Assembly: GCA_030018135.1 (NCBI GenBank)
Contig: JASEGJ010000022.1
Location: 1-17,384, forward strand
Direction: 5' to 3'
DNA length: 17,384 bases
Source: Candidatus Hodarchaeaceae archaeon
GTDB taxonomy: Archaea; Hadarchaeota; Hadarchaeia; Hadarchaeales; Hadarchaeaceae
How positions within the stretch are numbered: the first letter of the stretch is position 1; each line of letters starts with the position of its first letter. The notes under the pieces were generated by a model that saw only the letters and a list, made by a program, of their open reading frames with translations, ran no database searches and was not told where the DNA came from. This document shows, piece by piece, positions 1,627 to 17,384 of this stretch. Both the position numbers and the translations under genes were made by a program.

Positions 1627-1634
1627 AACCATAA

Positions 1635-1644
1635 GTTTAAATAA
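1635..1644 (+). promoter_or_regulatory. TATA box of vapBC
   Basis: GTTTAAATAA lies about 25 bases before the expected transcript start near 1663-1666, giving a very short leader that carries AAGGTGG before the ATG at 1677. The tRNA ends only 31 bases upstream of the box, so vapBC probably has its own promoter. Confidence 0.5.
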
Positions 1645-1676
1645 ATCTAACTTCAAGTAATACCAAGGTGGCAGAC

Positions 1677-1922: not shown

Positions 1923-2333
1923 TTGGTCTACCTCGATGCTAATGTCTTCGTGTTTGCAACGTTAGCCACGGATAAACTTGGAGATGCCTCGAGGCATATA
2001 TTAGCAAACCTACGAAAGATGGACGCCAAAACCTGCTGCCTGACGATTGACGAGCTAGCTTGGGCGATCTTGAAAAGGGCAGATGTTTCGACTGCGGCTG
2101 AAGCGTGCAGGGCAGTGCTGATGTTGAAGGATCTGGATATCGTTTCGGTTGAGTACGGCGACATGTGGGAGATGGCGCGGGAGATGGAAACATGGGGGTT
2201 GAAGCCGCGTGACGGGTTGCATCTCGCGATCATGAAGCGGTTGGGGGAAAAATCGATAGTCACAGAAGATGCACACTTTGATAAGGTTGGCGTAAAGAGG
2301 ATTCAGATCAACGTCTTCGCGAGGTCGATTTGA
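1923..2333 (+). CDS. vapC: VapC-type toxin, PIN-domain ribonuclease
   Basis: This 136-residue PIN domain carries the four acids expected for a metal-dependent RNase: Asp5 in YLDANV, Glu44 in DELAW, Asp97 in RDGLHLA and Asp116 in TEDAHFD. VapC toxins cut RNAs, often tRNA or rRNA, when not bound by VapB. The start is TTG immediately after the vapB stop, with no good independent ribosome site, so translation should depend on vapB. The length is typical and no catalytic residue is missing, so it is probably active. A tRNA 3'-like fragment begins about 20 bases after the stop. Confidence 0.88.
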   Translation: MVYLDANVFVFATLATDKLGDASRHILANLRKMDAKTCCLTIDELAWAILKRADVSTAAEACRAVLMLKDLDIVSVEYGDMWEMAREMETWGLKPRDGLHLAIMKRLGEKSIVTEDAHFDKVGVKRIQINVFARSI

Positions 2334-2353
2334 CTTCACGCCCTTCATCGGAG

Positions 2354-2391
2354 AGCTGCAGTCTAGGGTTCAAATCCCCACGGGCCCGCCA
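2354..2391 (+). repeat. tRNA 3'-end-like fragment (possible attachment-site remnant)
   Basis: The stretch aligns with the 3' part of the tRNA-Arg at 1529-1603. It shares AGCTGCA (the 3' strand of the anticodon stem and one base beyond), GGGTTC and AATCCC of the T arm, and CGGGCCCGC of the acceptor end. Here a full CCA follows the discriminator G (2389-2391). The T stem has one mismatch and the variable region is one base shorter, so it is diverged from the upstream copy. There is no matching 5' half next to it. It lies in the same orientation as the tRNA, about 750 bases downstream with vapBC between, as in tRNA-targeted integration. It could instead be a decayed separate tRNA. Confidence 0.6.
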
Positions 2392-2393
2392 TT

Positions 2394-2401
2394 TTTAAAC
2401 C
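2394..2401 (+). promoter_or_regulatory. Probable TATA box of the flippase gene
   Basis: TTTAAACC lies right after the tRNA fragment and about 55 bases before the TTG start, leaving room for a leader of roughly 28 bases that includes AAGGGGAT. Confidence 0.35.
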
Positions 2402-2451
2402 ATTAACGAGATATCACGATGTCACGAGGTTGAATCTGAAAAGGGGATACT

Positions 2452-3990: not shown

Positions 3991-4075
3991 GAAAGGTCTT
4001 ATTTAGCGTCACAAAAATAGAGGCATAGGATGGTAAAAATCAGCATTTTGGCAGCGGAACGGTCGAGACAGATTG

Positions 4076-4088
4076 TATATATATAAAT
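4076..4088 (+). promoter_or_regulatory. Orphan TATA-like element
   Basis: GTATATATATAAA is one of the strongest TATA matches in the window, yet no coding region begins 25-60 bases downstream. The next gene starts 240 bases away, beyond a terminator-like hairpin. It is flanked by ACAGAT and ATCTGT arms (4068-4073 and 4095-4100). Confidence 0.35.
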
Positions 4089-4164
4089 TTCATGATCTGT
4101 TTTTTGTGTAATGATTTGGCAATTCTCTAGCATAGGGATCAATCCCACCTTTACTTAAGCACGG

Positions 4165-4197
4165 AAGGATGAAGATTTCATCTTTTTCATCTTTTTT
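4165..4197 (+). terminator. Hairpin followed by T-runs
   Basis: GATGAA (4168-4173) and TTCATC (4177-4182) pair around a three-base loop. The stem extends outward by A-T, A-T and one G-T pair, and two T-runs follow. It could end transcripts from the flippase gene or from the orphan TATA element. Archaeal termination often needs only T-runs, so the hairpin may be incidental. Confidence 0.4.
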
Positions 4198-4240
4198 TAT
4201 TCCTAAACTAATTATCCAAAAATTTCTTCTTATATTTGGT

Positions 4241-4250
4241 GTATAAACCG
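4241..4250 (+). promoter_or_regulatory. Possible TATA box of the sugar dehydrogenase operon
   Basis: GTATAAACCG would start a transcript near 4270, with a leader of about 55 bases that includes the GAGGG ribosome site before ATG 4327. Other A/T-rich stretches at 4264-4275 and near 4294 compete. Confidence 0.3.
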
Positions 4251-4326
4251 TTTTTATGTTTGAAGCTTAATAACACTTAAGACGATACAGTAAACATAAA
4301 AATCTGACTACAATCGAGGGAAGTAA

Positions 4327-5616
4327 ATGGAACTCCAAAGTAGGGTGAAGAGTAGGAATTTCACGTTAGCCGTAATCGGCTTGGGGCGCGTAGGCCTTCC
4401 TCTTTCTCTAGTATTCGCATCAAAAGGTGTGAACGTAACCGGAGTGGATGTGAATCCAGATACAATAAATAATCTTGAAAGAGGTGTTGTCACAGTTCGT
4501 GAAGAAGGCATCGAGGAATTATTTAACAAAGCACTTGAAAACCGAAAATTCTCAGTTACCACTGATGCGGCAGGCGCTATAAACAAAGCAGACGTCGTAA
4601 TCGTAACTGTAGGTACTCCCCTAACCCAAGACCTTAGACCTAATTTTAGTCAGCTTTATCAGGCACTGGGCGCGATATCGAGCCAATCGCTAGAAGGAAA
4701 GTTGATCGTGTTAAGAAGCACCGTTCCCCCAGGGACTACCGAAGGAGTTACATGCAAGTTCTTAAAGGAAAAAACTGGTTTGGAACCTGGACGTGATTTT
4801 TACCTAGCCTATTGTCCCGAGAGGATCTTAGAGGGCAAGGCAATAGAGGAATTAGAAAACCTTCCGGAGATCATAGGTGGTGTAGACTCGACGAGCTCGG
4901 CAATAGCCGCGGAGTTGTTCAAATTGATAAACCCAGAAAAAAGGATGATAATCACATCACCTAAGGTTGCGGAATTGGCAAAACTTTTCACGAATATTTA
5001 TAGGTATGTGAATTTTGCCTTAGCGAATCAATTCGCCTTGATCGCCGAGCACTACGGAACCGATGCGCATGAAGCGATTAGAGCAGCTAATGAGGATTAT
5101 AAACGATCTAACATTCCTTTACCTGGCCCAAGTGGGGGCCCTTGCCTTTATAAAGACGGATATATGCTCAACTATACCCCTTTTATCGATTTCATCAAAT
5201 CTGCTTGGCACCTCAACGAGAGTATTCCTCTCCATATTGTTAATCGGATAAAAGGAAAAGTAGGGAGCTTATTCGGTTTGAAGGTAGCGTTGTTGGGCTT
5301 AGCATTTAAAGCAGATATAGATGATACGAGACAATCACCAGCCATCAAGTTATTAAATGCGCTTAAAGCGGAGGGATGCGAAGTCGTGGCCCATGATCCC
5401 CATGTTAGCTCAGCCTCCCTCGAATCAGCGCTTTCTGGCGCGGATGTCGTAGTGTTAGCGGTTAATCACTCAAAATTTAAGGATCTAACATGCCAAGATA
5501 TCTCTAAGCTTGCTAAACCCAATTCTCTGCTTGTAGATTGCTGGGGTTTCTTTAAACCATCCGAAGCTGAAAAAGCCGGAATGAGATATGTGGGGCTGGG
5601 GAGGGGGCAGTTATGA
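4327..5616 (+). CDS. Nucleotide-sugar dehydrogenase (UDP-ManNAc/UDP-GlcNAc type)
   Basis: This 429-residue enzyme should oxidise the C6 hydroxyl of a UDP-sugar to a uronic acid using two NAD+. The N-terminal Rossmann motif GLGRVG is at 18-23. The middle domain has PERILEGKAIEELENLPEIIGGVD, the helix AKLFTNIYRYVNFALANQFA, and GGPCLYKDGYML with the catalytic Cys at residue 273. The C-terminal domain starts near LLGLAFKADIDDTRQSPA. The PERILEGKA and YRxVNxALAN pattern resembles the UDP-N-acetyl-mannosamine (WecC-like) dehydrogenases more than plain UDP-glucose dehydrogenase, but substrate choice is an inference. The ATG follows GAGGGAAGTAA. Its last four bases overlap the next gene (ATGA), so the two form an operon. 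The gene is AT-rich compared with the mutase upstream, suggesting a different origin. Confidence 0.92.
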   Translation: MELQSRVKSRNFTLAVIGLGRVGLPLSLVFASKGVNVTGVDVNPDTINNLERGVVTVREEGIEELFNKALENRKFSVTTDAAGAINKADVVIVTVGTPLTQDLRPNFSQLYQALGAISSQSLEGKLIVLRSTVPPGTTEGVTCKFLKEKTGLEPGRDFYLAYCPERILEGKAIEELENLPEIIGGVDSTSSAIAAELFKLINPEKRMIITSPKVAELAKLFTNIYRYVNFALANQFALIAEHYGTDAHEAIRAANEDYKRSNIPLPGPSGGPCLYKDGYMLNYTPFIDFIKSAWHLNESIPLHIVNRIKGKVGSLFGLKVALLGLAFKADIDDTRQSPAIKLLNALKAEGCEVVAHDPHVSSASLESALSGADVVVLAVNHSKFKDLTCQDISKLAKPNSLLVDCWGFFKPSEAEKAGMRYVGLGRGQL

Positions 5617-6575
5617 TTCTAGTTGCGGGCGGCGCTGGTTTCATTGGCAGCCATCTTATAGACCAACTTGTAGATGGCGGGTATGTGGTCCGCGTAGCAG
5701 ATGATTTCAGCAAAGGACGTCGAGAAAACATAGAAAATCATGAGGGCAAACCAAACTTCGAGATGATGCATGCAGATTTTACGGATTATGAGAATTGTAA
5801 GAAAGTGATCGACGACATCGATATCATGTTTCTGCTAGCAAGCAAAATAGGTGGGATCGGCTATTTTCACAAGTACCCAGCGGAAATCATCGATGCGAAC
5901 ACTAAGATAGTTTCAAATTTGCTGAATGCTGCTAGGAGGGCCGATGTCCAAAGGATTCTTTACATTTCCTCGAGCATGGTGTTTGAAAGAGCGGCGATAT
6001 TTCCCACCCCGGAACGGGCTTTGGAAAGGACTCCAGTACCAATAACTTCCTATGGCTTCTCAAAGCTAATTGGAGAATGGTTTTGCCGAGCTTTTTGGGA
6101 GGAACATGGCTTAAAATATACTATTCTTCGCCCGTTTAACTGCGTTGGACCCAGAGAACATCCGGAGGAGGAACCCGGTATGGCCCACGTCATCCCAGAT
6201 CTAACTAAGAAAATACTCCGAGGGGATTATCCACTCGAAATATATGGAGATGGATTACAGACGAGATGTTTCACCAATGTTAAAGATACTGTACGAGCGT
6301 TTGTACTTGCGATGAAGGAAAAGAAGGCCGTGTGCGAGGATTTCAACATAGGTAATCCGGAGGAAACACGGATAAAGGACCTAGCGGAGATGTTGTGGAA
6401 AATTTGCGGTAGAAAAGAACCTTTTAAATTAAAACATTTGCCATCTTTTGAGCACGATGTGCAGAGAAGAGTTCCGGATATTACAAAGGCTAAAAAAATA
6501 CTGAAATGGAAGCCACGAACACCGCTTGAAAAAACTCTCCAAGAGTATGTTGGATGGTATAAGAGTTATAGATAA
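5613..6575 (+). CDS. NAD-dependent sugar epimerase/dehydratase (extended SDR)
   Basis: This 320-residue extended short-chain dehydrogenase/reductase has GGAGFIG at 6-12, a Ser-rich strand YISSSMVF (117-124) and the catalytic pair Tyr147-xxx-Lys151 in SYGFSK. GDGLQTRCFTNVKDTV and the C-terminal DITKAKKILKWKP are typical of the nucleotide-sugar epimerase branch. The LASKIGGIGYFHKYP segment recalls the GGMGF region of GDP-mannose 3,5-epimerases, but the cysteine found in those enzymes after the catalytic Ser strand is replaced (SSSM rather than SSAC). I therefore leave the substrate open. It starts by an ATGA overlap with the dehydrogenase, so the two products may be used in sequence. It is cytosolic and of normal length. 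Confidence 0.9.
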   Translation: MILVAGGAGFIGSHLIDQLVDGGYVVRVADDFSKGRRENIENHEGKPNFEMMHADFTDYENCKKVIDDIDIMFLLASKIGGIGYFHKYPAEIIDANTKIVSNLLNAARRADVQRILYISSSMVFERAAIFPTPERALERTPVPITSYGFSKLIGEWFCRAFWEEHGLKYTILRPFNCVGPREHPEEEPGMAHVIPDLTKKILRGDYPLEIYGDGLQTRCFTNVKDTVRAFVLAMKEKKAVCEDFNIGNPEETRIKDLAEMLWKICGRKEPFKLKHLPSFEHDVQRRVPDITKAKKILKWKPRTPLEKTLQEYVGWYKSYR

Positions 6576-6639
6576 TTAAAGCATGTAAAATCACAAAATA
6601 AATCGTAAATTAACTGATTCGGGATAGGAAGGAAGAATC

Positions 6640-7635
6640 TTGAAAATTCTAGTCGTTCCAGCACATGAACCCATTGATGCAGAGCTAATGACATGTTGGT
6701 CAGCCCTTGGTCATGAAATATGCATTTATCCTACAAATCGATGGAAGTCATTCTTTGCCGAATTACCTGCGGGCGTTCAAACCAAACTAATAATTCCAAA
6801 CGTTATCTATTGTGGAGATCATTGGGATATCTTACGCGCACTATTTCTAAAATATGGATTAAATCCAAAAACACCAATTTTCAATGTTCTCTGGTGGTTC
6901 CCTTCTAAAAGCCCTCTTTATTATTTCGTAAATAACATTTCAGTCTGTGATTACGAAAGGGAATATCTGAAGAATCTCCTTGGTATCGATAGCCCTGTGA
7001 TATACTGCCCCGTAAACACCGATTTGTTTAGACCTGCCGAAAAATGGGAAAATAGAAAGATAGCAACGATCATAGGGAATTACTTTAAGGAAAGGCCAAT
7101 GATGGGGTGCGGTTACCTTCTTAAAATATTTGAGCGGGTTCATGAGCTAGATCCCGAAATCCGATTTCGGGTAATCGGGAATAATCCAAATCTACTGTGT
7201 CCTCCCCACGTTGAAAAAGTGTTCTTAAAAAGAGAAGAAATGCCAAAATACATTAACGAGTCTTCCTGTGTCTTCTTTACGACCACGCAGAATTTGATAC
7301 CCCATAGTTTGTTGATAAGCATGAGCTGCGGCAAAAATGTGATCGCCTTCGATTTACCATCTCTCCGTGAAGTAATCGTCGACGGCGTAACGGGGCACTT
7401 AATCCCCCTATTCGATGTTGAAATGTTTGCCAAAAAAATTGTTGAAGTAGCAAGTGACCCCCCAAGAAAAATAGGGGAAAAAGCTAGAGAAGTTGTTATA
7501 GACAAGTGCGAAAGGATGAAGGTCGCAAAACAATTTATTAAGGTTTTTGAAAAGGAACGCGGTTATTTTTGGCATAATATCCGGATGGCCCTTCTTTTCC
7601 GTTTCACCCGCTCGGCAAAAGTTTTTCCAATTTGA
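6640..7635 (+). CDS. Glycosyltransferase-like protein, GT4/GT-B fold, EX7E motif missing
   Basis: This 331-residue protein resembles the GT-B glycosyltransferases. The C-terminal half has the order KIATIIGNY, FRVIGNNPNL, YINESSCVFFTT, HSLLISMSCGKNVIAFDLPSLREVIVDGVTGHLIP and then helices, as in GT4 enzymes. In GT4 enzymes an EX7E pair normally sits just before the ACG turn. Here the aligned positions are Asn218 and Ile226, so both acids are gone. The N-terminal half is short and diverged. The start is TTG after GGAAGGA. The gene follows the epimerase after 64 bases and could share its transcript. Its tail overlaps the opposite-strand methyltransferase by 73 bases. It may be an inactive partner, a spore-coat-type glycosyl transferase, or an enzyme with altered chemistry. 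Confidence 0.75.
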   Translation: MKILVVPAHEPIDAELMTCWSALGHEICIYPTNRWKSFFAELPAGVQTKLIIPNVIYCGDHWDILRALFLKYGLNPKTPIFNVLWWFPSKSPLYYFVNNISVCDYEREYLKNLLGIDSPVIYCPVNTDLFRPAEKWENRKIATIIGNYFKERPMMGCGYLLKIFERVHELDPEIRFRVIGNNPNLLCPPHVEKVFLKREEMPKYINESSCVFFTTTQNLIPHSLLISMSCGKNVIAFDLPSLREVIVDGVTGHLIPLFDVEMFAKKIVEVASDPPRKIGEKAREVVIDKCERMKVAKQFIKVFEKERGYFWHNIRMALLFRFTRSAKVFPI

Positions 7636-8180
7636 CTAAAAATATCAAATAAAAATTTGATTTTTATCCTTTTGATTTCAAAAGCACAACATTGGGCACT
7701 GAGTATCTTAAACCTCGATTTTTCAAATAAATCTGAAAGGGATTCTTTGGTGAAAAACTGTTTGTGATCTGGGTCTGCACGAATATTAGGATCCCATTTT
7801 GACGGAACTTCCGCGATGATTACGCCTCCTTTTTTTAAGACTCTAAAAAATTCTCTCACCGCTTCATGCGGATTTTCTAAATGTTCTAGAACATGGTGGC
7901 AAAAAATTCCGTCGAAAAAGTTATTTTTGTAGGGCAAACTTCTAATATCACCGATTACTGACATTTCATACTTACTGGCGGTCTTTACCTCTTCAGGGTT
8001 ACAGTCGATTCCATGAAGCTCCACTTGAGCAGGTTTAAATTTACCAAACCACCCAACCCCACAACCCGCATCCAAGATTTTATTACAATTATGCTTAATG
8101 AAAATCGACCAGTACTTTTGAATTTGATACTCCGATGGATATTCCTTGTATATCCTTAACACAGTTCGAATTCCTGTCAA
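7563..8180 (-). CDS. Class I SAM-dependent methyltransferase
   Basis: This 205-residue protein has the Rossmann-type methyltransferase core: motif I ILDAGCGVG at about 35-43, a second acidic strand at ELHGIDCNP, motif II VIGDIRSLPYKNNFFDGIFCHHVLEHLENP and motif III RVLKKGGVIIAEVPS. The closest type is the Methyltransf_11-like enzymes found in glycan clusters, which may methylate sugars. The start is TTG at 8180, only six bases after the stop of the upstream glycosyltransferase, with GGGCTGATC as a possible ribosome site, so it is probably co-transcribed with that gene. GTG at codon 7 is an alternative start. The last 73 bases overlap the convergent gene's 3' end. Confidence 0.85.
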   Translation of the reverse strand: MTGIRTVLRIYKEYPSEYQIQKYWSIFIKHNCNKILDAGCGVGWFGKFKPAQVELHGIDCNPEEVKTASKYEMSVIGDIRSLPYKNNFFDGIFCHHVLEHLENPHEAVREFFRVLKKGGVIIAEVPSKWDPNIRADPDHKQFFTKESLSDLFEKSRFKILSAQCCAFEIKRIKIKFLFDIFSQIGKTFAERVKRKRRAIRILCQK

Positions 8181-8186
8181 GATAGA

Positions 8187-9350
8187 TCAGCCCTTGTCAA
8201 ACTTTTCTACCATTTGGATAAATCTGTCACAAACCTTCGGCCAGGTGTAGGTGGCCTCCACATATTCTCTGCCCTTTTCAGCCAACTTTCGCCTTTTTTC
8301 CTCCTCGGAAAGCAAATTGCATATCTCACGCGTAGCCTCTGAAGCATCCCTAAATAAAAATCCACGTTTCCCGACCACTTCCCGGTGGGCCGGAATGTCC
8401 GACACGACGGGGAAAGCCCCACACGCTAGCGCCTCGATGGGTACTATCCCAAATCCCTCGAACTCGGAGCACGAGAGCAGGACCTTAGCCCGTTGTAATA
8501 CCCTGAGCTTCTCCTGCTCCGCGACGAACCCCCTAAATTTTATACCTTTATCCTTAGCCAGCTCCATTAACCTCCTCCTGTCTGGGCCATCCCCAACGAT
8601 AACGAGCTTAACATCAGGCACCTTTTCCTTCACCCGCCTGAAAATCTCTATCGCCATGTCCACGCGCTTGTAGGACACCAGCCTCCCCAGTACCGCTATC
8701 GTCTGCTGCTTTTCCTTGGAGTACTTGTACTTCTCTATCTCTATCCCGTTGCCCGTCACGAATATCCTCTCCCTCGCTATGCCGTAGCTCCTGACCATGG
8801 GCTCGATGTTCTGAACTGAAACAGTTTCAACGAGGTCGGCATATCTGGGTAGGTTGTTGTAGAGCCAGACGTAGAAGAGGCCCGGATAAACGAGCGGACC
8901 GTAATCCCTCCTGTAGTGATGAAGATAGAGCGGGATCTCGTACACATCGTGCACCTCGGCAATCAACGGGATTTTATGCGCCCTCGCCAGCACGAAAACC
9001 CTTGGAAAGGCGAACGACATGGGGGTGACGAGGAAATCGGGCTTTTTCGCTTTAAGGATCCTATTGAGCGCCCTAACACAAGAAACGGTGTTGACCGCCA
9101 TGTTTTTCAAGGAGACGGCTATGGGCTCATCGAACCAAGGGGAATAAGAGCCATACCTGATGAACTCGATACCATCGATGACCTCGTGTTCTGGCGTCCC
9201 TCTCCACCTACCCGTGACCATCTTCACCCCATGCCCTCTTTTAACCAGCTCCCTCGACAAGAAGAACGCATGCGCCTCCCCTCCGCCCGGGATCACCAGC
9301 TTCTCGCCCTTCCGATGAGGGAAGACCTCGCTAACGAAGCAGAACTTCAT
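8187..9350 (-). CDS. Glycosyltransferase family 4
   Basis: This intact 387-residue GT-B glycosyltransferase starts with MKFCFVSEVFPHRKGEK and the loop IPGGGEAHAFFLSRELVKRGH, which contacts the acceptor or diphosphate. The C-terminal domain has IAVLGRLVSYKRVD, KLVIVGDGPDRRRL and FEGFGIVPIEALACG, with both EX7E acids present (Glu298 and Glu306). It should transfer a sugar from a nucleotide donor to a growing lipid-linked glycan at the inner membrane face. The ATG follows GTGGGGGAT. It probably forms a two-gene unit with the methyltransferase downstream. A truncated glycosyltransferase head of a different sequence lies just upstream (9418-9678). Confidence 0.93.
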   Translation of the reverse strand: MKFCFVSEVFPHRKGEKLVIPGGGEAHAFFLSRELVKRGHGVKMVTGRWRGTPEHEVIDGIEFIRYGSYSPWFDEPIAVSLKNMAVNTVSCVRALNRILKAKKPDFLVTPMSFAFPRVFVLARAHKIPLIAEVHDVYEIPLYLHHYRRDYGPLVYPGLFYVWLYNNLPRYADLVETVSVQNIEPMVRSYGIARERIFVTGNGIEIEKYKYSKEKQQTIAVLGRLVSYKRVDMAIEIFRRVKEKVPDVKLVIVGDGPDRRRLMELAKDKGIKFRGFVAEQEKLRVLQRAKVLLSCSEFEGFGIVPIEALACGAFPVVSDIPAHREVVGKRGFLFRDASEATREICNLLSEEEKRRKLAEKGREYVEATYTWPKVCDRFIQMVEKFDKG

Positions 9351-9394
9351 TTTTATCCCCCACAGTTTTCAAACTTTTTTAGTCCAAAGAGCTG

Positions 9395-9405
9395 TTAAAT
9401 CTATG
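9395..9405 (-). promoter_or_regulatory. Possible TATA box of the GT4 gene
   Basis: On the minus strand AGATTTAACAG lies about 50 bases before ATG 9350, in an AT-rich gap, leaving a leader of about 25 bases that carries GTGGGGGAT. Confidence 0.3.
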
Positions 9406-9417
9406 TTTTGCCCCAAG

Positions 9418-9678
9418 TCAACCCCAAGACCCAAGTATAAAGGCCGCATGAAAGCGGAGCCGTCGGCGTGATTCAAGCTTCATCCCCGCGGAAGAGACGA
9501 ATACTCTATGGATGTGTACGCCTTCGTGCACCTCGTAGCTCGGCAAACCTCTGAACCTCCGCGTGAGGATGTGGATCTCGTGTCCTTTGGCCAACCTCCT
9601 TGCGGTCTCGTACATCCGCGTTTCCTCGCCGCCCAGCAGAAAAGGGTAGAAGAGATCCGAGGCCATAAGAATACGCAT
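9418..9678 (-). pseudogene. Truncated GT4 glycosyltransferase head, copy A
   Basis: The reading MRILMASDLFYPFLLGGEE continues with TRMYETARRLAKGHEIHILTRRFRGLP and stops after 86 codons. This is the start of a GT4 enzyme, with its GGEE loop, but the rest of the N-terminal domain and the whole catalytic C-terminal domain are missing. ATG 9678 has a good GGTGA ribosome site (GGGGGTGAGCTG), better than the in-frame ATG at 9696. It is the longest of three related heads in this window (see 10901-11016 and 12371-12463). The 35 bases just upstream also match the 3' end of the ATPase gene. It is almost certainly not a working transferase, although a short peptide could still be made. Confidence 0.75.
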
Positions 9679-9745
9679 CAGCTCACCCCCAAGCAATCAC
9701 TTCCAGAGCGGTCTGTAAATGATTCTCCCCCAATCTTTCTCTCCC

Positions 9746-10378
9746 CTAAACTTGGGACACCCAAACATCCAGCTTCTCATATTCTGCTCCAAACCTCTGC
9801 AGCGCGTCCGTCAGCTCCTTTAGGTTCTTCGCTGGAACCAAGACAGATGCTATGCCGGTCCTTCTGCCCCCCAACTTTTCGATCAGCCCCGCAACCTCAC
9901 TTTTGTATGTCTTCCCCCCATATCGTTTAACCGTCCGATGCCCATAAAGCGCCCTTTTGAGCCTCATCTTGTCGGGTTTGCCAATTTTTTTAAGGGAAAA
10001 GTGTACGAGCGAGCACGGCTCCAGCTTTAATCTTTTAGCATCTACTTGCGGGACCTTGCCGTACAGGATTAGACCCTCCTTGAACACTTCCTCGATGAAT
10101 TGACTGTCAAGTCCGTCGAAATTTTTGTTCGTGAAAACGAGTGATACGCCCCTGCCGAATTCTTTCTCGAGGTTCAAACCGATTTCGCCGACATGTCTTC
10201 GGAGTTCTTTGCTTACCGGTTTTTGCGTGTCCGAGATCACGAGAAAGTCCACATCGCTTCTAGGGTCAGCCTCCCCCTCAGCTACCGAGCCGAAAAGGAT
10301 TAAGGATCGAACTTCAGGAATGCCGGAAATCCTCTTTGCGAACTCAAACACCAAGTCCTTAAACTCGGTTTGAATCAT
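9746..10378 (-). CDS. Minimal nucleotidyltransferase-like protein (MNT), HEPN partner
   Basis: This 210-residue protein has an N-terminal nucleotidyltransferase domain with the signature LFGSVAEGEADPRSDVDFLV (Gly30, Ser31, Gly35, Ser41, Asp42, Asp44). The third acid expected on a later strand is not evident: the GRGVSLVF strand has Ser in that place. A further C-terminal region of about 90 residues (YGHRTVKRYGGKTYKSEV, then LVPAKNLKELTDALQRFGAEY) makes it longer than standalone MNT antitoxins. In known HEPN-MNT pairs, MNT proteins block HEPN RNases, in some cases by adding AMP. Its ATG overlaps the stop of the upstream HEPN-like gene by four bases (ATGA), so they form one unit. It is followed by the remnant glycosyltransferase head. 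Confidence 0.82.
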   Translation of the reverse strand: MIQTEFKDLVFEFAKRISGIPEVRSLILFGSVAEGEADPRSDVDFLVISDTQKPVSKELRRHVGEIGLNLEKEFGRGVSLVFTNKNFDGLDSQFIEEVFKEGLILYGKVPQVDAKRLKLEPCSLVHFSLKKIGKPDKMRLKRALYGHRTVKRYGGKTYKSEVAGLIEKLGGRRTGIASVLVPAKNLKELTDALQRFGAEYEKLDVWVSQV

Positions 10379-10797
10379 TTCCTCGCCCCATTATCACGAA
10401 AACTTTCTTTTGTGGACTTTCGTAATACTGGATTGGAACCCAAGTGCTTTTCACAAATATTTTTGACGACCTCCGTCAGCTCCTGGGTTCTCTCTAACGC
10501 CTCGCCGTTTATGGCGCCACCGTAAGCCTGCCCCGGTCGGATTTGATTCTCTACTTCTTGGAACGCCCGCCAAACCTTTTCCGTGTCTTCTCCAAAAATT
10601 CCTTTGTTCAATTCGAGGACGTTTCTCACGAGTTTGTGTTTGTTGATATGAATTCGGTGTTTCGCGGTTACCGCCTCGATCAGGTGAAATGTCGCCTCAA
10701 AGAAAGCCTCTATCCTAGTGGGCTCCGAGTTCTGCTCGTTTGTTACGTCCTTCAGGAACATGTGATACTTTTTAATGTGAATCTCGAACGATGACAT
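10375..10797 (-). CDS. HEPN-like helical protein paired with the nucleotidyltransferase
   Basis: This 140-residue protein looks mainly alpha-helical (FFEATFHLIEAVTAKHRIH, then TEKVWRAFQEVENQIRPGQAYGG and ALERTQELTEVVKNICEKHL). Its position before an MNT gene, with an ATGA overlap, is the typical arrangement of HEPN-MNT toxin-antitoxin pairs. An R-x5-H pattern (Arg48 to His54) could be the HEPN RNase signature, but I cannot confirm that it falls at the right helix. The start ATG 10797 follows GGGAAGAG. A clean TATA box at 10833-10843 drives the pair. The family is known to me mostly as uncharacterised archaeal proteins, so the toxin role is inferred from context. Confidence 0.7.
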   Translation of the reverse strand: MSSFEIHIKKYHMFLKDVTNEQNSEPTRIEAFFEATFHLIEAVTAKHRIHINKHKLVRNVLELNKGIFGEDTEKVWRAFQEVENQIRPGQAYGGAINGEALERTQELTEVVKNICEKHLGSNPVLRKSTKESFRDNGARK

Positions 10798-10832
10798 ACT
10801 CTTCCCTTGTTTATATTGTATTACGCAAAATA

Positions 10833-10843
10833 CCTATTTATAG
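10833..10843 (-). promoter_or_regulatory. TATA box of the HEPN-MNT operon
   Basis: On the minus strand CTATAAATAGG is an excellent archaeal TATA match, about 40 bases before ATG 10797, giving a leader of about 15 bases. Confidence 0.55.
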
Positions 10844-10900
10844 TTTTCGTTATATTATCTTAGAAAAAGCGGGGAGCAATCGAGAAAAAGTTTCTATAGG

Positions 10901-11016
10901 TCGTGAGGATGTGGGGTTTCGTGTTTCACCAACCTGCGCACTATCTCGTACATCCGCTTTTCCCCACCGCCAAGAAGGAAGGGGTGGAAGAGGTCCGAGG
11001 CCATCAGGATTCGCAT
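10901..11016 (-). pseudogene. Truncated GT4 glycosyltransferase head, copy B
   Basis: Reading from ATG 11016 gives MRILMASDLFHPFLLGG and then GEKRMYEIVRRLVKHE, closely matching copy A. After that a one-base insertion near 10913 puts it out of frame and a TAG follows. With the base removed, HILT still aligns with copy A, after which similarity ends at the HEPN promoter region. The ATG overlaps the ATPase stop as TGATG, so a full glycosyltransferase gene once followed the ATPase gene, or the ATPase gene was placed at the head of one. Only about 38 codons remain, so it is non-functional. Confidence 0.75.
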
Positions 11017-12269
11017 CAGGACCCCCCAAGCAGCCACTTCCATAGGGGAATGAAGCGTATTTTTACCCCCCCAACTGTTTCACTTCCCTCAACATCCTTA
11101 GTTACAATCGTGCCTTCTTCAGCACCGAGTTCTCTCGCGCACGACACGAGCCCCCCGACCTCGCGCTTTCGCACCTTGTCGCTCATTTCGACCACGACCT
11201 GCACCAGCTCCTCCACCCTCACCCCTTTCCTGGTCACGAAATCCGTTTCAGCTCCCCGCCTGTCTTTCCAGTAGTGGATTTCGTGGTTTTGCGGCAGCCG
11301 CCTTTTCAACTCCAAGAACACGGCGTTTTCGAAGAGCCGGCCCATATCGACTTTTCCACTCACCGTATACATGAAACCGGTGTCCCCCAGATACGCCTTC
11401 CTCGGGTACTGCAACCGGTCCTTTATGCTGTACGAAAATATGGGGACGAAGAAGAAAAGGTAGCCGTCCTGAGAGCGTTTTTCCAAGTTGAGGATGCTCT
11501 GTTTGCCGATTTTGTGGCCGAGGCTTTTGAATAGGTTCAGACACTTCGAGGCGGAGAAGTACGGCGTCTCGACGATGTACTTTCCGAACAGCTCTACTGT
11601 GGTCGGAGTTTCCCCAGCCATCTCGGCCACATCGAGCCCCGCGATGTCCTTGAAGTAAGAGTTAAGCAGTTTGACCTTGTCCGTTTTATCGCTGAGGAGG
11701 ACGACCTCCGGGAACCCCCCGTAAATGAGGTAGTCGTGCAGCGCCCTCTCTATTTTGCCCAGTCCGACGGTCGTCCGTTCGAACTCTATGCCGCAGAACT
11801 GCAGAAACTCCTTGAACGATAGGGGGTAAAGCTCGTACGTCAGCACTCTCCCCCTGAGCGGTTTGCTGGGCACCGCGAGCCTTTTCCGCGAGGAGCTCAC
11901 AATCAGGTGCAGCTTTTCCTTCAGTAGCTCATGGTTGCGGGAGAGCCACCCTTCCCAGTCCCAAACATTTGTTATCTCATCCAGCAACAAGTAGCCAGTG
12001 TCTCCGAACCACTTCAGTATCTCGTCGAGGACATTCCGCGCATCCTTGATCCTGCTGTCCTCCAGATCGATGTATCCAGCCTTTTTGCCTTCCTTGGCCA
12101 GCTTCTGGTGCAAGAGGATCAGCAGGCTGGACTTCCCCGCCCTCCGTATGCCGGTGACCCCTATTATCTTCAGCAGGGAGTTGGCTTCCATGGCGTCGAG
12201 ATCGGTTGCCCGCGGCTTGAGCTGTTTTTTGAGAGCGTAGGTGTTCCACTCGTCGAACACTTGCTGCAT
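11016..12269 (-). CDS. Archaeal AAA ATPase with DUF4143 domain
   Basis: This 417-residue protein has a Walker A motif GIRRAGKSS at 40-48, a Walker B motif YLLLDE at 93-98 and a following SSSRK sensor-like segment, then the DUF4143 region from about residue 180 onward. The C-terminal domain contains FENAVFLELKRR and HYWKDRRGAETDFV, a pattern seen in RecB-like nuclease folds. Proteins of this type are abundant and mobile in archaea; their cell role is not settled, and ATP-driven DNA or protein transactions are suspected. The ATG directly follows a perfect inverted repeat, with no ribosome site, and a TATA box sits about 28 bases before it, so the mRNA is probably leaderless. Its stop overlaps the head of a dead glycosyltransferase (TGATG). 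All key residues look intact. Confidence 0.9.
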   Translation of the reverse strand: MQQVFDEWNTYALKKQLKPRATDLDAMEANSLLKIIGVTGIRRAGKSSLLILLHQKLAKEGKKAGYIDLEDSRIKDARNVLDEILKWFGDTGYLLLDEITNVWDWEGWLSRNHELLKEKLHLIVSSSRKRLAVPSKPLRGRVLTYELYPLSFKEFLQFCGIEFERTTVGLGKIERALHDYLIYGGFPEVVLLSDKTDKVKLLNSYFKDIAGLDVAEMAGETPTTVELFGKYIVETPYFSASKCLNLFKSLGHKIGKQSILNLEKRSQDGYLFFFVPIFSYSIKDRLQYPRKAYLGDTGFMYTVSGKVDMGRLFENAVFLELKRRLPQNHEIHYWKDRRGAETDFVTRKGVRVEELVQVVVEMSDKVRKREVGGLVSCARELGAEEGTIVTKDVEGSETVGGVKIRFIPLWKWLLGGS

Positions 12270-12296
12270 AATATTGTTTTTCTACAGAACAATATT
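12270..12296. promoter_or_regulatory. Operator-like palindrome O1 abutting the ATPase start
   Basis: AATATTGTT (12270-12278) and AACAATATT (12288-12296) are perfect nine-base arms around a nine-base spacer. The site begins at the base next to the ATPase ATG and runs to the TATA box, so a bound dimer would block initiation. Confidence 0.65.
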
Positions 12297-12302
12297 TAAG
12301 TA
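12293..12302 (-). promoter_or_regulatory. TATA box of the ATPase gene
   Basis: On the minus strand TACTTAAATA is centred about 28 bases before the ATG at 12269. That puts the transcript start at or next to the start codon and implies a leaderless mRNA. Confidence 0.55.
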
Positions 12303-12304
12303 TT

Positions 12305-12325
12305 ATTGTTTTTATATGGAACAAT
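12305..12325. promoter_or_regulatory. Operator-like palindrome O2 upstream of the TATA box
   Basis: ATTGTT (12305-12310) and AACAAT (12320-12325) have the same nine-base spacing as O1, with a related spacer (TTTATATGG against TTTCTACAG). O2 lies exactly 32 bases from the matching position of O1, about three helical turns, so both would face the same side of the DNA. Confidence 0.6.
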
Positions 12326-12370
12326 TTTTGAGTGGGTGTTTAGTTCGTATGTGGTTCGAGTTCATCGTTT

Positions 12371-12463
12371 TTTCGGCCAACCTGCGCGCTACCTCGTACA
12401 TCCGTGTTTCCTCGCCGCCAAGCAGGAAAAGGTGGGAGAGACCGAAGCCATCAGGATGTGCAT
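12371..12463 (-). pseudogene. Truncated GT4 glycosyltransferase head, copy C
   Basis: From ATG 12463 the reading is MHILMAS and then goes out of frame because one base is missing after TCGG. In the shifted frame LFLLGGEETRMYEVARRLAE matches copy A. By hand alignment there are about 18 differences in 90 positions between copies A and C. Similarity ends near 12371, just before the ATPase control region. The head begins at the end of the methyltransferase reading frame, with GGTTAGCCG in place of the GGTGAGCTG seen before copy A. It is a dead remnant of the third gene of a GT2-methyltransferase-GT4 operon. Confidence 0.72.
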
Positions 12464-13149
12464 CGGCTAACCTGCCCCATCTTGATAGTAAGGTAGGTGG
12501 AATGCCGGGTGAATATCCGTGAAAGGAGATTCGAAATCCGGCGGGGGAAAGGGTAAATCCCGCAACCCACGAGCTTTTCCACTTTAAATCCATGATATCT
12601 TGCGAGGTCTCTAAGCGCCGCAGCCGTGAATAACTTAACGTGACCGTGGGTTTCGGTTCCATAAAGAAAATTACCACCTGGACTCTGCTCACGTGCGGGC
12701 CGGGAGGCATCATACCTAAGCCCATAAAAGCTAAGTTGTGGAATGAGCTCAGATTTGCCGTCGATATCACCGCGTAACCTCCGGGGTCTAAAATCCTCCG
12801 AATCTCCGAGAAAAAGCCATCCGTGTTCCAAAGGTGCTCCAGGACTTGATTCGATACGACAACATCGAAAGAGTCGTCTTCGTGTGGGAACTTTGCATTC
12901 GCATCGTGTTTGATCGCCTCAATTCCCTTTTCCCTCGCTTGTTCCACACCATATTCATCGATGTCCATGCCATACAACCTCTTCGTCCCGATCACCCCCC
13001 ACTTTAAGCGTGAATTCGCCGGAAGTGCACCCGATGTCCAATACCCTCGCGTCGCTGTCCTTTTCCAGAAGCGAGAGCACCCTATGCTGGTTCTCCTGAT
13101 AATGTCCGCTAGCAAATCCGAAAAACTTGCTATCACTCCACTTTCTCAT
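12451..13149 (-). pseudogene. Frameshifted SAM-dependent methyltransferase
   Basis: Three frames together rebuild one class I methyltransferase of about 230 residues. Frame one gives MRKWSDSKFFGFASGHYQEN and VLDIGCTSGEFTLKVG (motif I). Frame two continues VIGTKRLYGMDIDEYG, FDVVVSNQVLEHLWN and ILDPGGYAVISTANLSS. Frame three gives EQSPGGNFLYGTETHGHVKLFT and KVEKLVGCGIYPFP. The first switch is at a run of six C (12995-13000 on the plus strand), where one base too many is present. The second is near 12688-12695, where one base is missing. Its ATG overlaps the GT2 stop (TGATG) behind GGTGAGC. Its original stop may have been lost, since the frame now ends inside glycosyltransferase copy C. Sequencing error at the C-run is possible, but two shifts plus a decayed neighbour favour a real pseudogene. 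Confidence 0.8.
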
Positions 13150-13802
13150 CAGCTCACCCTCTGCTTCAGCAGCGCCCAAAATATCTTGAACCCGCTGGCG
13201 ATGGTCGTCCCCCGCGCCTTCGAGTACGGGGTGTAGAAACACCTGACCGGAACCTCCTTGAGCCCCAACCCAAGTTTCCGTGCCTGGACTATTATTTCAG
13301 ACGAGACCTCGTAGCGGTCGCTCCGGATGCGGATCGCCTCGAGCGCCCGGCGGTTGAACGCTCTAGAGCCGGACTGGGAGTCCGTGAATACGCCCGAAAA
13401 GAGGTAGGTTATGAAATTCAGCCCAAAATTCCCTATTCGCTTGTGAAGAGGTATGCCAAGGTGCTGCCTGACGCCTATTGCTACGTCCCCTCCGTCCAAA
13501 GCCTCCAAAAGCCTTTGCACGGCTTTGGGGTCATGCTGCCCATCTGCGTCGAAGGTGACGGCTCGATCAGCTCCCCTCTCGCGAGCAGCCCCCAAACCGG
13601 TCCTGAGTGCTGCCCCGAGTCCCATATTTTTGGGATGGCTAATGACCAGCGCACCCTTCGAGCGGGCGATCTCAACCGTCCGATCAGTTGAGCCGTCGTC
13701 GACCACTATGACATTCGCCCAGCCCTCAGTGCGTAGGGAGTCAAGTACCCCTCCTATGGTCCGCTCCTCATTGTGGGCAGGCATGACTATCCAGACTTTC
13801 AT
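13149..13802 (-). CDS. GT2 glycosyltransferase, dolichyl-phosphate-mannose-synthase-like
   Basis: This intact 217-residue GT-A enzyme starts MKVWIVMPAHNEERTIGGVL and has the nucleotide-binding VVDDGSTD, the metal motif DADGQHDP and the acceptor region QSGSRAFNRRALE. It matches the polyprenyl/dolichyl-phosphate hexosyltransferase group, which loads mannose or glucose onto a lipid carrier at the membrane. The C terminus lacks clear membrane helices, so it is probably peripheral. ATG 13802 is preferred over the in-frame GTG 13811 because GTGAGGA then serves as its ribosome site. It is the first gene of a minus-strand operon whose next two members are broken. It diverges from the adenosine-specific kinase family gene. 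Confidence 0.9.
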   Translation of the reverse strand: MKVWIVMPAHNEERTIGGVLDSLRTEGWANVIVVDDGSTDRTVEIARSKGALVISHPKNMGLGAALRTGLGAARERGADRAVTFDADGQHDPKAVQRLLEALDGGDVAIGVRQHLGIPLHKRIGNFGLNFITYLFSGVFTDSQSGSRAFNRRALEAIRIRSDRYEVSSEIIVQARKLGLGLKEVPVRCFYTPYSKARGTTIASGFKIFWALLKQRVS

Positions 13803-13888
13803 TTTCCTCACACTTAATTGGTTTCGGGCCCTGATTAAACCCTAACTTTATGACCTTCTAGAAATAAGAAATGAGGGATCAAATGGAG

Positions 13889-14365
13889 ATGAAAATAGTA
13901 AAGCTCGAAGCGCCCGAGGGCTGCCAACTTGTGCTGGGTCAGACTCATTTCATTAAGTCGGTCGAGGACATCTACGAAGCGATGGTAAACTCAGTGCCAA
14001 GCGTGAAGTTCGGGATCGGCTTTTGCGAATCGTCTGGGCCCTGTCTAGTTCGTCACAGCGGGAACGACGAGGCACTTGAGAAGCTTGCTGCTGAGAAAGC
14101 CCTCGAGCTCTCCTGTGGGCATTGTTTCCTCCTCTTCATGAGGGGCGCGTATCCGATCAACGTGCTCAATGCCATGAAACAAGTACCAGAGGTCTGTTCC
14201 ATCTTCTGCGCCACCGCTAATCCCGTCGATGTGATCGTCGCAGAAACCGAGCAGGGACGCGGCATCCTGGGGGTGATCGATGGACTGAAGAGTAAGGGCA
14301 TCGAAGGGCCCAAAGACGTAGCGGAGCGGAAGGAGTTCCTCCGGAGGATAGGCTACAAGCTCTAG
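13889..14365 (+). CDS. Adenosine-specific kinase family protein (COG1839)
   Basis: This protein of about 158 residues matches the small archaeal family annotated as adenosine-specific kinase: [46 protein letters not shown] at the N terminus, then [56 protein letters not shown]. Length and order are typical. Three in-frame ATGs occur (13871, 13883, 13889); the last has GAGGGATC eight bases upstream and fits the family start best. The kinase role rests on family annotation rather than on visible kinase motifs. It diverges from the GT2 gene and is followed 70 bases later by the membrane protein gene. It looks like conserved housekeeping DNA and marks the end of the remodelled region. Confidence 0.88.
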
Positions 14366-14435
14366 GCTAGGCGCTTTTCAAAAAGAAGGAAATACTTTTC
14401 GGCTCGAGAGTATATAGGAGGTTGAGGCTCTGAAG

Positions 14436-15113
14436 ATGAACAAAGGGCTAGTACATCTCCCGCTCACCCTGCCCTTCTTCCTCCTATTCATCCTCCTCGC
14501 CCTACTCTTCCCCTTGATCATGAGCGAGGCGTTCATGCGGTTGGGTTTTTCCCCCCTCGCAGCCCTCTACTTCCTGATATTTTCGATATTCGGGAGTGCC
14601 ATCAACATCCCCCTCAAGACCATCTACACCGCTGGGGAGATAGTGAGGGTGAGGGTCCATAGTTTCTACGGGTTGCTCCATCCCGAGTTGGTTCGGGAGC
14701 ACGGCAGGAGAAGAACCGTGATTGCCATGAACGTCGGCGGAGCGTTGGTCCCCATCCTCGTATCCAGTTTTCTGTTCCTAAGGTTCGGTACAGCCCTATC
14801 CTGGCGGGTCCCCCTTGGGATAGCACTTGTCTCCGCGATATGTTTCAAGCTCGCGCGAATCGTGCCTAGGGTCGGGATCGTGATGCCAGCTTTTATCCCC
14901 CCGCTTGCTGCAGCCGCGGTAGCAATCCCTTTGGGTGGGACTTCAGCCCCAGCCCTAGCCTACATCTCGGGCGTCTGCGGGGTGCTGCTGGGGGCGGACC
15001 TATTGAACCTTAGGGAAGTTTCGAAGCTGGGGGCGCCGGTGATGAGCATAGGCGGAGCCGGCACATTCGATGGAATTTTTCTGACGGGGATAATCTCGGT
15101 CCTCTTGGTCTAA
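14436..15113 (+). CDS. DUF1614 family membrane protein
   Basis: This 225-residue protein has about seven hydrophobic segments, the first two at roughly residues 7-27 and 36-58. Charged loops carry IYTAGEIVRVRVHSFYGLLHPELVREHGRRRT. The C-terminal GADLLNLREVSKLGAPVMSIGGAGTFDGIFLTGIISVLL pattern is the mark of DUF1614, a family of unknown function found in archaea and some bacteria. The ATG follows GAGG eight bases upstream, with a stronger GGAGGT a few bases earlier. A TATATAGG stretch at about 14411 could be its promoter. It ends convergently with the epimerase, sharing three bases. No function can be assigned. Confidence 0.75.
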   Translation: MNKGLVHLPLTLPFFLLFILLALLFPLIMSEAFMRLGFSPLAALYFLIFSIFGSAINIPLKTIYTAGEIVRVRVHSFYGLLHPELVREHGRRRTVIAMNVGGALVPILVSSFLFLRFGTALSWRVPLGIALVSAICFKLARIVPRVGIVMPAFIPPLAAAAVAIPLGGTSAPALAYISGVCGVLLGADLLNLREVSKLGAPVMSIGGAGTFDGIFLTGIISVLLV

Positions 15114-16039
15114 GCGCTGGTCAATTTCTTGACCCCCTCTTCGAGCGAAACCTTCGGTCGGAACCCCAGCACTTGGCGCGCCTTAGTGATGTCTGCTAGG
15201 CTGTGCCGGATGTCGCCCGGTTTGGCATCCGAGTAAATGGGCTTGAGATGGGTCTTTCCGGCCAGTTCCAGAAAAATCTCGCATAGCCTGTTTATGGTGG
15301 TGGCCTCCCCCGTGCCAATGTTGAATACCTCGCCCGCCACACCCCTGCGATTTAGAGCGAGCATGGTTGCCTCGACCACATCGCTCACGTGGATGAAGTC
15401 CCGAGTCTGCTCGCCGTCGCCGAAGATGATGGGTGGCTGGTCCCTTCGAATGCGCTCCAAGAACTTGAGCATCACTCCGGCGTACTCGCCAGCTGCCTGC
15501 CGGGGGCCGTAGACGTTGAAATACCGCAGGCGGACCGTTTCAAGCCCATGCTCGTGGTAAAAGGTTTGACAGAACCCCTCCGCGGCCAACTTCGACTCAC
15601 CGTACAGCGACAGGGGCTTCAACGGGGCATCCTCACTTATGGGAATTCTTGAGGCGGCACCGTACACCGCGCACGAGGATGCATAGACGAACCTCCTGAC
15701 ACCAGCTTTCAGGCTACCCCTGAGGAGGTTTAAAGTTCCCAACACATTCACCTCGTTCGTGAGCGCTGGCTTTTCCGTCGACAGGGGCACGCTCACCAGT
15801 GCTGCCTCGTGGATGACCGCGTCCGCGCCTTCGAGGGCTCTTTCCACGACGCGCGCGTCCCTCACATCACCTCGCACGAAGCGGAAGTCAGGCTCGTCCG
15901 AGTGGCGCCGGATGTTTCCCAATTTGCCCGCTGAGAGATCGTCGAAGACGACGACCTCGTATCCATCCGCGATGAGTTTATCCACGATGTGGCTGCCGAT
16001 GAAACCAGCGCCGCCGGTTACGAGAACTTTTTCGACCAC
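15110..16039 (-). CDS. UDP-glucose 4-epimerase-like NAD-dependent epimerase
   Basis: This 309-residue extended SDR has TGGAGFIGSH at about 8-17, YASSCAVYG, the catalytic Tyr146-xxx-Lys150 in LYGESK, YFNVYGPRQ, FGDGEQTRDFIHVSD and the closing DITKARQVLGFRPK. It should convert UDP-glucose or UDP-GlcNAc to the galactose form, or a related UDP-sugar. The frame is open further upstream (to 16168), but that part lacks family similarity and runs through the divergent gene's promoter. GTG 16039 with GGGGGTCGC upstream places the Rossmann motif right at the N terminus as expected. It is GC-rich like the flanks and therefore may be native. It is probably a supplier for the polysaccharide genes. Confidence 0.92.
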   Translation of the reverse strand: MVEKVLVTGGAGFIGSHIVDKLIADGYEVVVFDDLSAGKLGNIRRHSDEPDFRFVRGDVRDARVVERALEGADAVIHEAALVSVPLSTEKPALTNEVNVLGTLNLLRGSLKAGVRRFVYASSCAVYGAASRIPISEDAPLKPLSLYGESKLAAEGFCQTFYHEHGLETVRLRYFNVYGPRQAAGEYAGVMLKFLERIRRDQPPIIFGDGEQTRDFIHVSDVVEATMLALNRRGVAGEVFNIGTGEATTINRLCEIFLELAGKTHLKPIYSDAKPGDIRHSLADITKARQVLGFRPKVSLEEGVKKLTSA

Positions 16040-16079
16040 ATTGCGACCCCCGGACGCAGCAATTTGCCTTATGGGTCCA

Positions 16080-16092
16080 TGATTAAAATAAT
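16080..16092 (+). promoter_or_regulatory. Possible TATA box of the YjbQ-family gene
   Basis: GATTAAAATAATT lies about 32-44 bases before ATG 16124 and would give a short leader holding GGTGGTG. Confidence 0.35.
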
Positions 16093-16123
16093 TGGAGGGG
16101 TCTGGATAATTGGTGGTGTTGGT

Positions 16124-16534
16124 ATGAAAACTTGGTTCAAGGAAATTGCCTTTTCCACCCGTCAGCAACGTGAAACGGTGGACCTAACCGAGGAAGTGCT
16201 TTCAGCCGTCGGTGAGTCGGGCGTTAGAAACGGTTTACTCGTGCTCCAGCTCCCCCACGCTACGGCTGCGTTGACGCTGAACGAGAGTGAGGATGGACTG
16301 AGGCGTGACATACTCGAGAAGCTCGACGATTTGATCCCCGTGCGAGGCCGATACCAGCACGATCGAATCGACACCAACGCGCACGCACACCTCAAGTCTG
16401 CGCTCGTGGGCTCGTCCGTCGTGTTGCCGATCGTCGACGGTTCAATCATTAGGGGCACTTGGCAGAACTTCCTCGTGATCGAGCAGGACGGACCTAGGAG
16501 GCGGAGGCTCGCGGTCTTCGTGATGGGGGAATAG
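16124..16534 (+). CDS. YjbQ family (UPF0047) protein
   Basis: This 136-residue protein belongs to the YjbQ/UPF0047 family, one-domain enzymes with a thiamine-phosphate synthase side activity in some members. Visible marks are GLLVLQLPHATAALTLNE, YQHDRIDTNAHAHLKSALVGSSVVLPIVDGSIIRGTWQ and the closing DGPRRRRLAVFVMG. ATG 16124 follows GGTGGTGTT. A longer open frame from 15989 runs through the neighbour's 5' end and lacks family similarity. It diverges from the epimerase with 84 bases between. Length is normal and conserved histidines are in place. The natural substrate is unknown. Confidence 0.9.
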   Translation: MKTWFKEIAFSTRQQRETVDLTEEVLSAVGESGVRNGLLVLQLPHATAALTLNESEDGLRRDILEKLDDLIPVRGRYQHDRIDTNAHAHLKSALVGSSVVLPIVDGSIIRGTWQNFLVIEQDGPRRRRLAVFVMGE

Positions 16535-16693
16535 CGAGGAGGGGACATCCGTATAACAAACAAATATTGAGATTACCCCCGCGACTTCCATCCAAAGGGG
16601 TGCTTAAGCACTTCTTTGAAAGAAAAAAGCGCTGGTGAGGCTATGAGGAGGTGCGCTTGCAACGTCGATTCAAGTTCCTTAAGGGGTACGAGC

Positions 16694-17284
16694 ATGCATC
16701 CCCAAGGTAAAAACGAGATCGAGAAAGTTCTAGAAAAACTCAAATCCAAAGCAGAAACATGCCAGCGCTGCAGGTTGCACAAAACGAAAACGAGAATCGT
16801 GTTCGGTGTTGGGCCAGCGACAGCTGATATTATGATAGTGTCCGAAGCTCCGGGATATTGGGAGGACCAAAGGGGGGAACCGTTCGTGGGGGCCGCCGGA
16901 AAAAACCTTAATGCGTTATTGCTTCAAGCAGGATTAAAACGTGAGGAGGTTTACATCGCTAACATCCTAAAATGCAGACCCCCAGCTAACAGGGACCCAT
17001 TGCCGGATGAAATTGAAGCCTGCCGTCCTTTATTGGAGGGTCAGATTTCTGCGATAAAGCCAAAATTCATCATCGCTTTGGGCAGGATATCCGCGGGGGA
17101 GTTGTTGGGTAGGCCAGTGACGATGAGCAAAGAACATGGCTCACTGGTCGACTGCACCTACGCCGGCACGAGCTTCAAGCTCTTCCCCACCTATCACCCA
17201 GCCGCCGGCATCTACAGCGGGCGGACGAAGCTTGAGCTCCAAAATGACTTCAGAAAGCTTGGGGAGATGTTCAAGAAAGTTTAG
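16694..17284 (+). CDS. Family-4 uracil-DNA glycosylase, Fe-S
   Basis: This 196-residue family-4 uracil-DNA glycosylase removes uracil from DNA and is typical of archaea and thermophiles. Four cysteines for a 4Fe-4S cluster are at 23, 26, 94 and 110 (CQRC, LKCRP, EACRP). Motif A reads SEAPGYWEDQRGEPFVGAAG; the usual first Gly of GEAPG is Ser here. The conserved NRDP and YHPAA motifs follow. Start choice is uncertain: ATG 16694 with AAGGGGT upstream gives the family's usual N terminus, while ATG 16643 with GGTGAGG two bases away would add 17 residues with no family match. It stands alone on its strand after the YjbQ gene. It is unrelated to the polysaccharide genes. Confidence 0.92.
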   Translation: MHPQGKNEIEKVLEKLKSKAETCQRCRLHKTKTRIVFGVGPATADIMIVSEAPGYWEDQRGEPFVGAAGKNLNALLLQAGLKREEVYIANILKCRPPANRDPLPDEIEACRPLLEGQISAIKPKFIIALGRISAGELLGRPVTMSKEHGSLVDCTYAGTSFKLFPTYHPAAGIYSGRTKLELQNDFRKLGEMFKKV

Positions 17285-17294
17285 CGGCGCTACC

Positions 17295-17320
17295 GGGATA
17301 CTTTAGGGATACTTTAAATA
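17295..17320 (+). promoter_or_regulatory. Tandem 11-base repeat ending in a TATA box
   Basis: GGGATACTTTA occurs twice head to tail (17295-17305 and 17306-17316). The second copy runs into CTTTAAATA, a good TATA box. A further TTTAAAAAC stretch occurs near 17365. They probably serve a gene beyond the right edge, since nothing codes in the last 100 bases. Confidence 0.35.
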
Positions 17321-17384
17321 CGGTCAAATGTAATTAAGTCATTTCCCACAAGTCACGCCGTAGTTTAAAAACATCGGAGTCCCA

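Follow-up and report, generated by a model that had tools for sequence, protein, structure and literature searches.

The stretch of DNA analysed here, 17,384 nucleotides (nt) from the genome of a Candidatus Hodarchaeaceae archaeon (assembly GCA_030018135.1, contig JASEGJ010000022.1, positions 1 to 17,384; hereafter the window), carries on its minus strand three fragments of the 5' end of a GT4 glycosyltransferase gene, copies A, B and C. Between them lie the gene of an AAA_14-DUF4143 ATPase and a pair of genes including an MNT nucleotidyltransferase. We propose that the GT4 fragments are target duplications left by insertion of these cassettes. The three segments are the top direct-repeat family in a repeat search of the window. 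Copy A lies at 9443-9686 (end approximate), and a DNA search of the same genome with its 139-nt head finds copy B at 10902-11019 (79% identity, E 1e-21) and copy C at 12372-12471 (79%, E 4e-18), with weak similarity of copy C possibly extending to about 12342. The ATG codons of A, B and C lie at 9678, 11016 and 12463, and CGGATGTACGAG is common to all three. Over the first 90 nt or so, the nucleotide alignment gives 78% identity for A and B, 80% for A and C and 84% for B and C (83-84% in the annotation of copy C); in this part copy A is 84-87% identical to the GT4 genes of the related genomes G016, G017 and G025. An initial annotation, made from the sequence alone, had placed three related GT4 5' ends with a shared sequence at these sites, and both searches and the alignment agree with it. 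The copies are old and broken. Copy C has lost one base, and copy B has a one-base insertion, its match to the GT4 gene ceasing at about nt 122. Copy A, the longest head, keeps its reading frame for 86 codons before truncation. To this much of the earlier account, alignment to the intact G017 gene adds that copy A is also two bases short near codon 74, with clear homology until about nt 243.

The ATPase gene (11016-12269, minus strand, 417 amino acids (aa)) occupies the interval from C to B. Both of its Pfam domains (PF13173 and PF13635) score above cut-off, the PADLOC profile PDC-S01 matches over the full length (E 2e-72), and structure models agree. PLWKWLLGGS is the C-terminus of the protein, and the ATG of copy B overlaps the stop codon of the gene. 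With copy C on the left and copy B on the right, a repeat of 89 nt and 83% identity surrounds the gene. In the upstream region (12270-12341, minus strand) an imperfect repeat, ATTGTT...AACAAT, lies across the presumed promoter; the repeat search lists it as direct repeat D7 at 12269-12332. Many ATPase genes of this family have short repeats at the presumed promoter, which possibly represent a self-regulation operator. From B to A, also on the minus strand, lie the MNT nucleotidyltransferase (9746-10378, 210 aa) and its 140-aa partner (10375-10797). The nucleotidyltransferase matches Pfam NTP_transf_2 and, below cut-off, the NCBIfam MntA model (E 5e-10). For the partner, a putative HEPN protein, no Pfam family was found, and PADLOC PDC-M05B matches weakly (E 0.0016). 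The pair may be an MNT-HEPN (type VII) toxin-antitoxin system: the nucleotidyltransferase belongs to the MNT fold family, the MntA model stays below cut-off, and the partner has the weak PADLOC match. The two cassettes stand between the copies as first described; the HEPN label is the part that Pfam does not support. An ATPase 3'-end remnant of about 60 nt (RIIYRPLWK*LLGG; about 9687-9745, minus strand), missed by the earlier reading, directly precedes copy A. Its identity is 93% with the end of the G025 ATPase, over 58 nt, and 78% with the end of the window ATPase. The repeat around the MNT pair, which copy B shares in as part of the left copy, consists of ATPase end plus GT4 head (151 nt, 78%).

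The GT4 site was traced in relatives. A profile search of genome contigs with the head alignment returned three loci, all in Hadesarchaea metagenome-assembled genomes and apparently the same contigs as those of G016, G017 and G025. The intact GT4 gene encodes 373-375 aa in G017 and G025, and in G016 it reaches the contig end. In G016 the intact GT4 start directly follows the GT2 orthologue with a TAATG stop/start overlap, after which the contig ends; this GT2/GT4 junction is probably the empty site. Junctions of an ATPase 3' end with the GT4 head are found at window copies B and A, in G013 and in G025. At the syntenic G013 locus, an ATPase end (ALWKWLLKG*, read from sequence) with the GT4 head is followed by a decayed MNT cassette, 80-86% identical to that of the window, and then by another ATPase-like end; the head stops at the same point as copy B. 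G025 encodes an ATPase of 441 aa that shares 39% identity with the window protein; the same head comes after it and breaks off at about 83 nt. Since the junctions in G013, G025 and the window share the GT4 spot, insertion at this site is both old and recurrent, with G013 and G025 as cases of reuse. The initial annotation had suggested looking for an intact gene in place of the fragments, and had named as the contrary outcome three full GT4 genes decaying independently. Relatives with the gene carry a single intact copy, and the only extra copy among them is the fragment in G025, which is again ATPase-linked. Decay of ordinary GT4 paralogs was rejected as an explanation, the GT4 body not being found elsewhere in the source genome. 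The G025 locus (contig C4) is rearranged: near-identical GT2 gene pieces lie a few kb apart at 9644-10066 and 14205-14933, with a transposase-like open reading frame (ORF) nearby (8471-9352).

Flanking repeats are not confined to the window. We sampled 115 distinct AAA_14-DUF4143 genes with flanks from archaea, where this family is abundant (11 or more in some genomes), and scored a repeat when the 700-nt flanks matched each other at E <= 1e-4. Direct repeats were present in 20 of the 115 loci and an inverted one in a single locus, that of G025. The repeats are 23 to 341 nt long with 71 to 100% identity, and in 9 of 21 loci the downstream copy begins at most 6 nt from the stop codon (binomial 5e-13 if starts were uniform). 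A first control set of 164 genes gave two hits: the same ATPase locus read in a different frame, and an inverted match of 26 nt. Four of the 137 genes in a second set scored, all of them DUF234 and MNT loci that had been fetched on purpose; after cleaning, this set had flanking repeats in 0 of 133 genes (Fisher p 8e-8 against 20/115). Flanking repeats were likewise found in DUF234 ATPase loci (7/28) and in MNT loci (6/22), and at an MNT locus of G009 a 57-nt repeat of 93% identity stands right behind the MNT stop codon. The repeat at G023C1b was rejected because it arises artificially from a premature stop. Behind the ATPase of G024 (contig C1), a relic of the GT4 head is suggestive only, being mostly a 14-nt match to a hand-extended sequence, and was left uncounted. 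Two other arrangements were seen among the ATPase loci. In G040 (contig C9), five AAA_14-DUF4143 genes form a run with spacings of 117-269 nt, and in G024 (contig C1, 1273-1327) and G015 (contig C48), intact ATPase genes are immediately preceded by ATPase 3'-end remnants, which gives the impression that cassettes replaced each other at one spot.

The repeated sequences at these loci could in part be assigned to genes, and the identified targets are mostly ends of differing host genes. Both repeat copies around the G012 ATPase correspond to the last 110 nt, at 95% identity, of a gene of the sepS family. This gene is found in 21 of 22 family genomes; a second 3' end together with the ATPase occurs in G012 only, and the other 20 have a single one. 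The repeat at the G141 ATPase corresponds to the 3' terminus of a trm1-like gene, which is single in G102 of the same genus; G102 in turn has an ATPase whose repeat is the 3' end of aspS. At loci L153, L158, L118 and L189 the repeated sequence belongs to the open frame upstream, of which it forms the 3' end. Two DUF234 ATPases from different genera (G009, contig C40; G003, contig C100) are bracketed by copies of a cas4-like 5' end, which looks like a second recurrent target. Where the target gene was recognised, one copy usually lies within the intact gene. At one further locus (L243) a 103-nt repeat has a tRNA-like look, and ARAGORN finds no tRNA in it.

We infer, with a probability of about 0.7, that the GT4 heads are long target duplications from cassette insertion. 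An ATPase cassette, made up of about 100 nt of promoter region and the ORF to its stop codon, would have inserted at the GT2/GT4 junction and duplicated about 100 nt of target, leaving C on one side and B on the other. The MNT pair would then have inserted in the enlarged target of ATPase 3' end and GT4 head, with ATPase end plus B as the left copy and 9687-9745 plus A as the right copy, and the window GT4 gene would have decayed later. As the length of such a duplication roughly equals the stretch that remains to the gene end, insertion there can leave a complete target gene, which would explain why the surviving cases sit at gene ends. The nuclease-like domain of the ATPase may have a part in the insertion. 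MNT pairs show the same pattern and have no nuclease-like domain, so the machinery would act in trans, or belong to the host, or the pattern would partly be due to homologous recombination between duplicated pieces. It is conceivable, though doubtful, that AAA_14-DUF4143 and PF01637-DUF234 genes are minimal mobile elements of promoter and one ORF, which make target duplications of roughly 30-110 nt at gene ends and mobilise MNT pairs in trans.

Several points weigh against insertion with target duplication as the whole account. The remnant before copy A is closer to the G025 ATPase than to the window ATPase; therefore, the history of the window has more steps than two. In G025 the head fragment repeats the intact GT4 start across the ATPase with 100% identity and in inverted orientation; G025 is an exception that does not fit simple direct duplication. 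About 80% of the ATPase loci are without a flanking repeat. The loci were selected for their similarity and the length of their flanks rather than randomly. The repeats at L126 and L127 may be tandem cassettes with a common promoter sequence. Between G141 and G102 the sequence beyond the trm1 site differs. The relatives compared, at one genome per species, are distant.

Among other explanations, homologous or homology-facilitated recombination deserves the first hearing, even if it is unlikely. A cassette that carried a piece of the target gene from its donor would undergo a single crossover there and so duplicate the piece. No cassette-borne enzyme is needed, MNT pairs are covered too, and the recurrence of one site across genera (window, G013 and G025) as well as the cas4-like 5' ends at two DUF234 loci would be expected; it leaves unexplained how cassettes were first joined to so many gene ends, and why repeats so frequently start exactly at the stop codon. 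Where one site has been used repeatedly in more than one genus, recombination of target-carrying cassettes is possibly involved also under insertion with target duplication. The initial annotation had taken the GT4 start for a recurrent landing or recombination site where cassettes are inserted and swapped. Recurrent use is borne out, with ATPase ends on the same GT4 start twice in the window, in G013 and in G025, and G016 as the likely empty counterpart; a dedicated sequence is not, the targets elsewhere being sepS, trm1 and aspS ends. The heads are better regarded as duplicated target than as landing site because the same ATPase family sits between unrelated duplicated gene ends. A GT4-only landing site was accordingly rejected as a general account. 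That the GT4 start is a specific site which cassettes target, or at which they recombine and swap, is quite unlikely; a shared target motif was neither sought nor found.

That a recombinase, of the tyrosine or another type, integrates the cassettes site-specifically in trans, with the repeats as attachment sites, is highly unlikely. Gene-end repeats of 40-110 nt and the 3' half of a tRNA in the window do resemble archaeal attachment sites, for which a length of 55 nt has been described in one example (PMC4158269), and archaeal integrative elements at the 3' ends of tRNAs and other genes are likewise units flanked by gene-end direct repeats that leave the gene intact. The window cassettes differ in holding an ATPase or an MNT pair only, with no integrase, in their size of about 1.5 kb, and in having no constant attachment sequence; the repeat is another one at each locus and varies from 23 to 341 nt. 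Least credible of all is that unrelated tandem duplications and GT4 decay in a fast-changing glycan cluster left cassettes between the copies by chance. It is true that the cluster has undergone rearrangement and that its GT4 copies are old and broken, but there is no GT4 body elsewhere in the genome, heads adjoin ATPase stop codons in several genomes, and the comparison with control genes, which have no such repeats, already disfavours it. Insertion with long target duplication is our preferred explanation, being the most economical one.

Structure prediction offers a candidate activity for the ATPase. The model of the window protein has a mean pLDDT of 92. A fold search with the whole protein reached the NTPase part alone, which is closest to the Pyrococcus abyssi ATPase 2qen (Z 17.6, root-mean-square deviation 4.2, 267 aligned residues) and also matches STAND proteins. 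The C-terminal domain was then folded separately (pLDDT 91.5); McrC gave its best matches (6hz4, E 2e-4; 6ut7, E 3e-4), and EcoT38I was matched too. Two members of the ATPase family match Mrr_cat. In the family, E20 and D49 of this domain are invariant and Q63 is nearly so; the usual position of the PD-(D/E)XK lysine is occupied by a glutamine. We regard the domain as McrC-like with a predicted nuclease fold; DNA cutting is putative. As in McrBC, with its AAA+ motor and PD-(D/E)XK nuclease, an ATPase and a nuclease fold are joined; unlike McrBC, the window ATPase is a single polypeptide whose NTPase part is nearest to 2qen, and its activity is a prediction. PADLOC describes PDC-S01, of which the window ATPase is a full-length member, as a candidate phage defence gene; flanking target duplications are no part of that description.

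Upstream of copy C, a methyltransferase gene (12472-13149, minus strand, end approximate; Pfam Methyltransf_11) separates the fragment from the GT2-type glycosyltransferase gene (13149-13811, minus strand; Pfam Glycos_transf_2), whose stop codon its start overlaps (TGATG). At the other end of the window, an AbrB/MazE-like and PIN pair (1668-2333) is bracketed like the ATPase and MNT cassettes. The left repeat copy (1568-1615, plus strand) comprises the 3' half of a tRNA-Arg (1529-1604 by ARAGORN) and flank, and 37 of its 48 positions are identical to a partial copy at 2354-2400 (plus strand, E 3e-5), about 20 nt downstream of the stop codon of the PIN gene.

Insertion with long, variable target duplications, of the order of 100 bp, has been described for restriction-modification genes (PMC3874152, PMC3031569, PMC1643837), and is credited, as cited in these three papers, to Nobusato et al. 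2000. The loci studied here are alike in being flanked left and right by direct target repeats, tens to hundreds of nt in length (the window; 20 of 115 family members), and differ in that archaeal AAA-ATPase/nuclease-like genes and MNT pairs are involved and that the copies are old and diverged. In the literature searched, with most subscription journals outside its scope, no report of such a pattern for these ATPases or for MNT pairs was found. The pattern was known earlier mainly for restriction-modification genes, and the ATPase and MNT cassettes in archaea are a new instance. Target duplication would also explain fragments of gene ends which might else be labelled decayed paralogs. A shared insertion signature would explain how ATPase and some toxin-antitoxin-like cassettes spread without transposases, would serve as a simple marker of recent moves, and would mean that the process known from restriction-modification genes also operates on other archaeal cassettes of the defence type.

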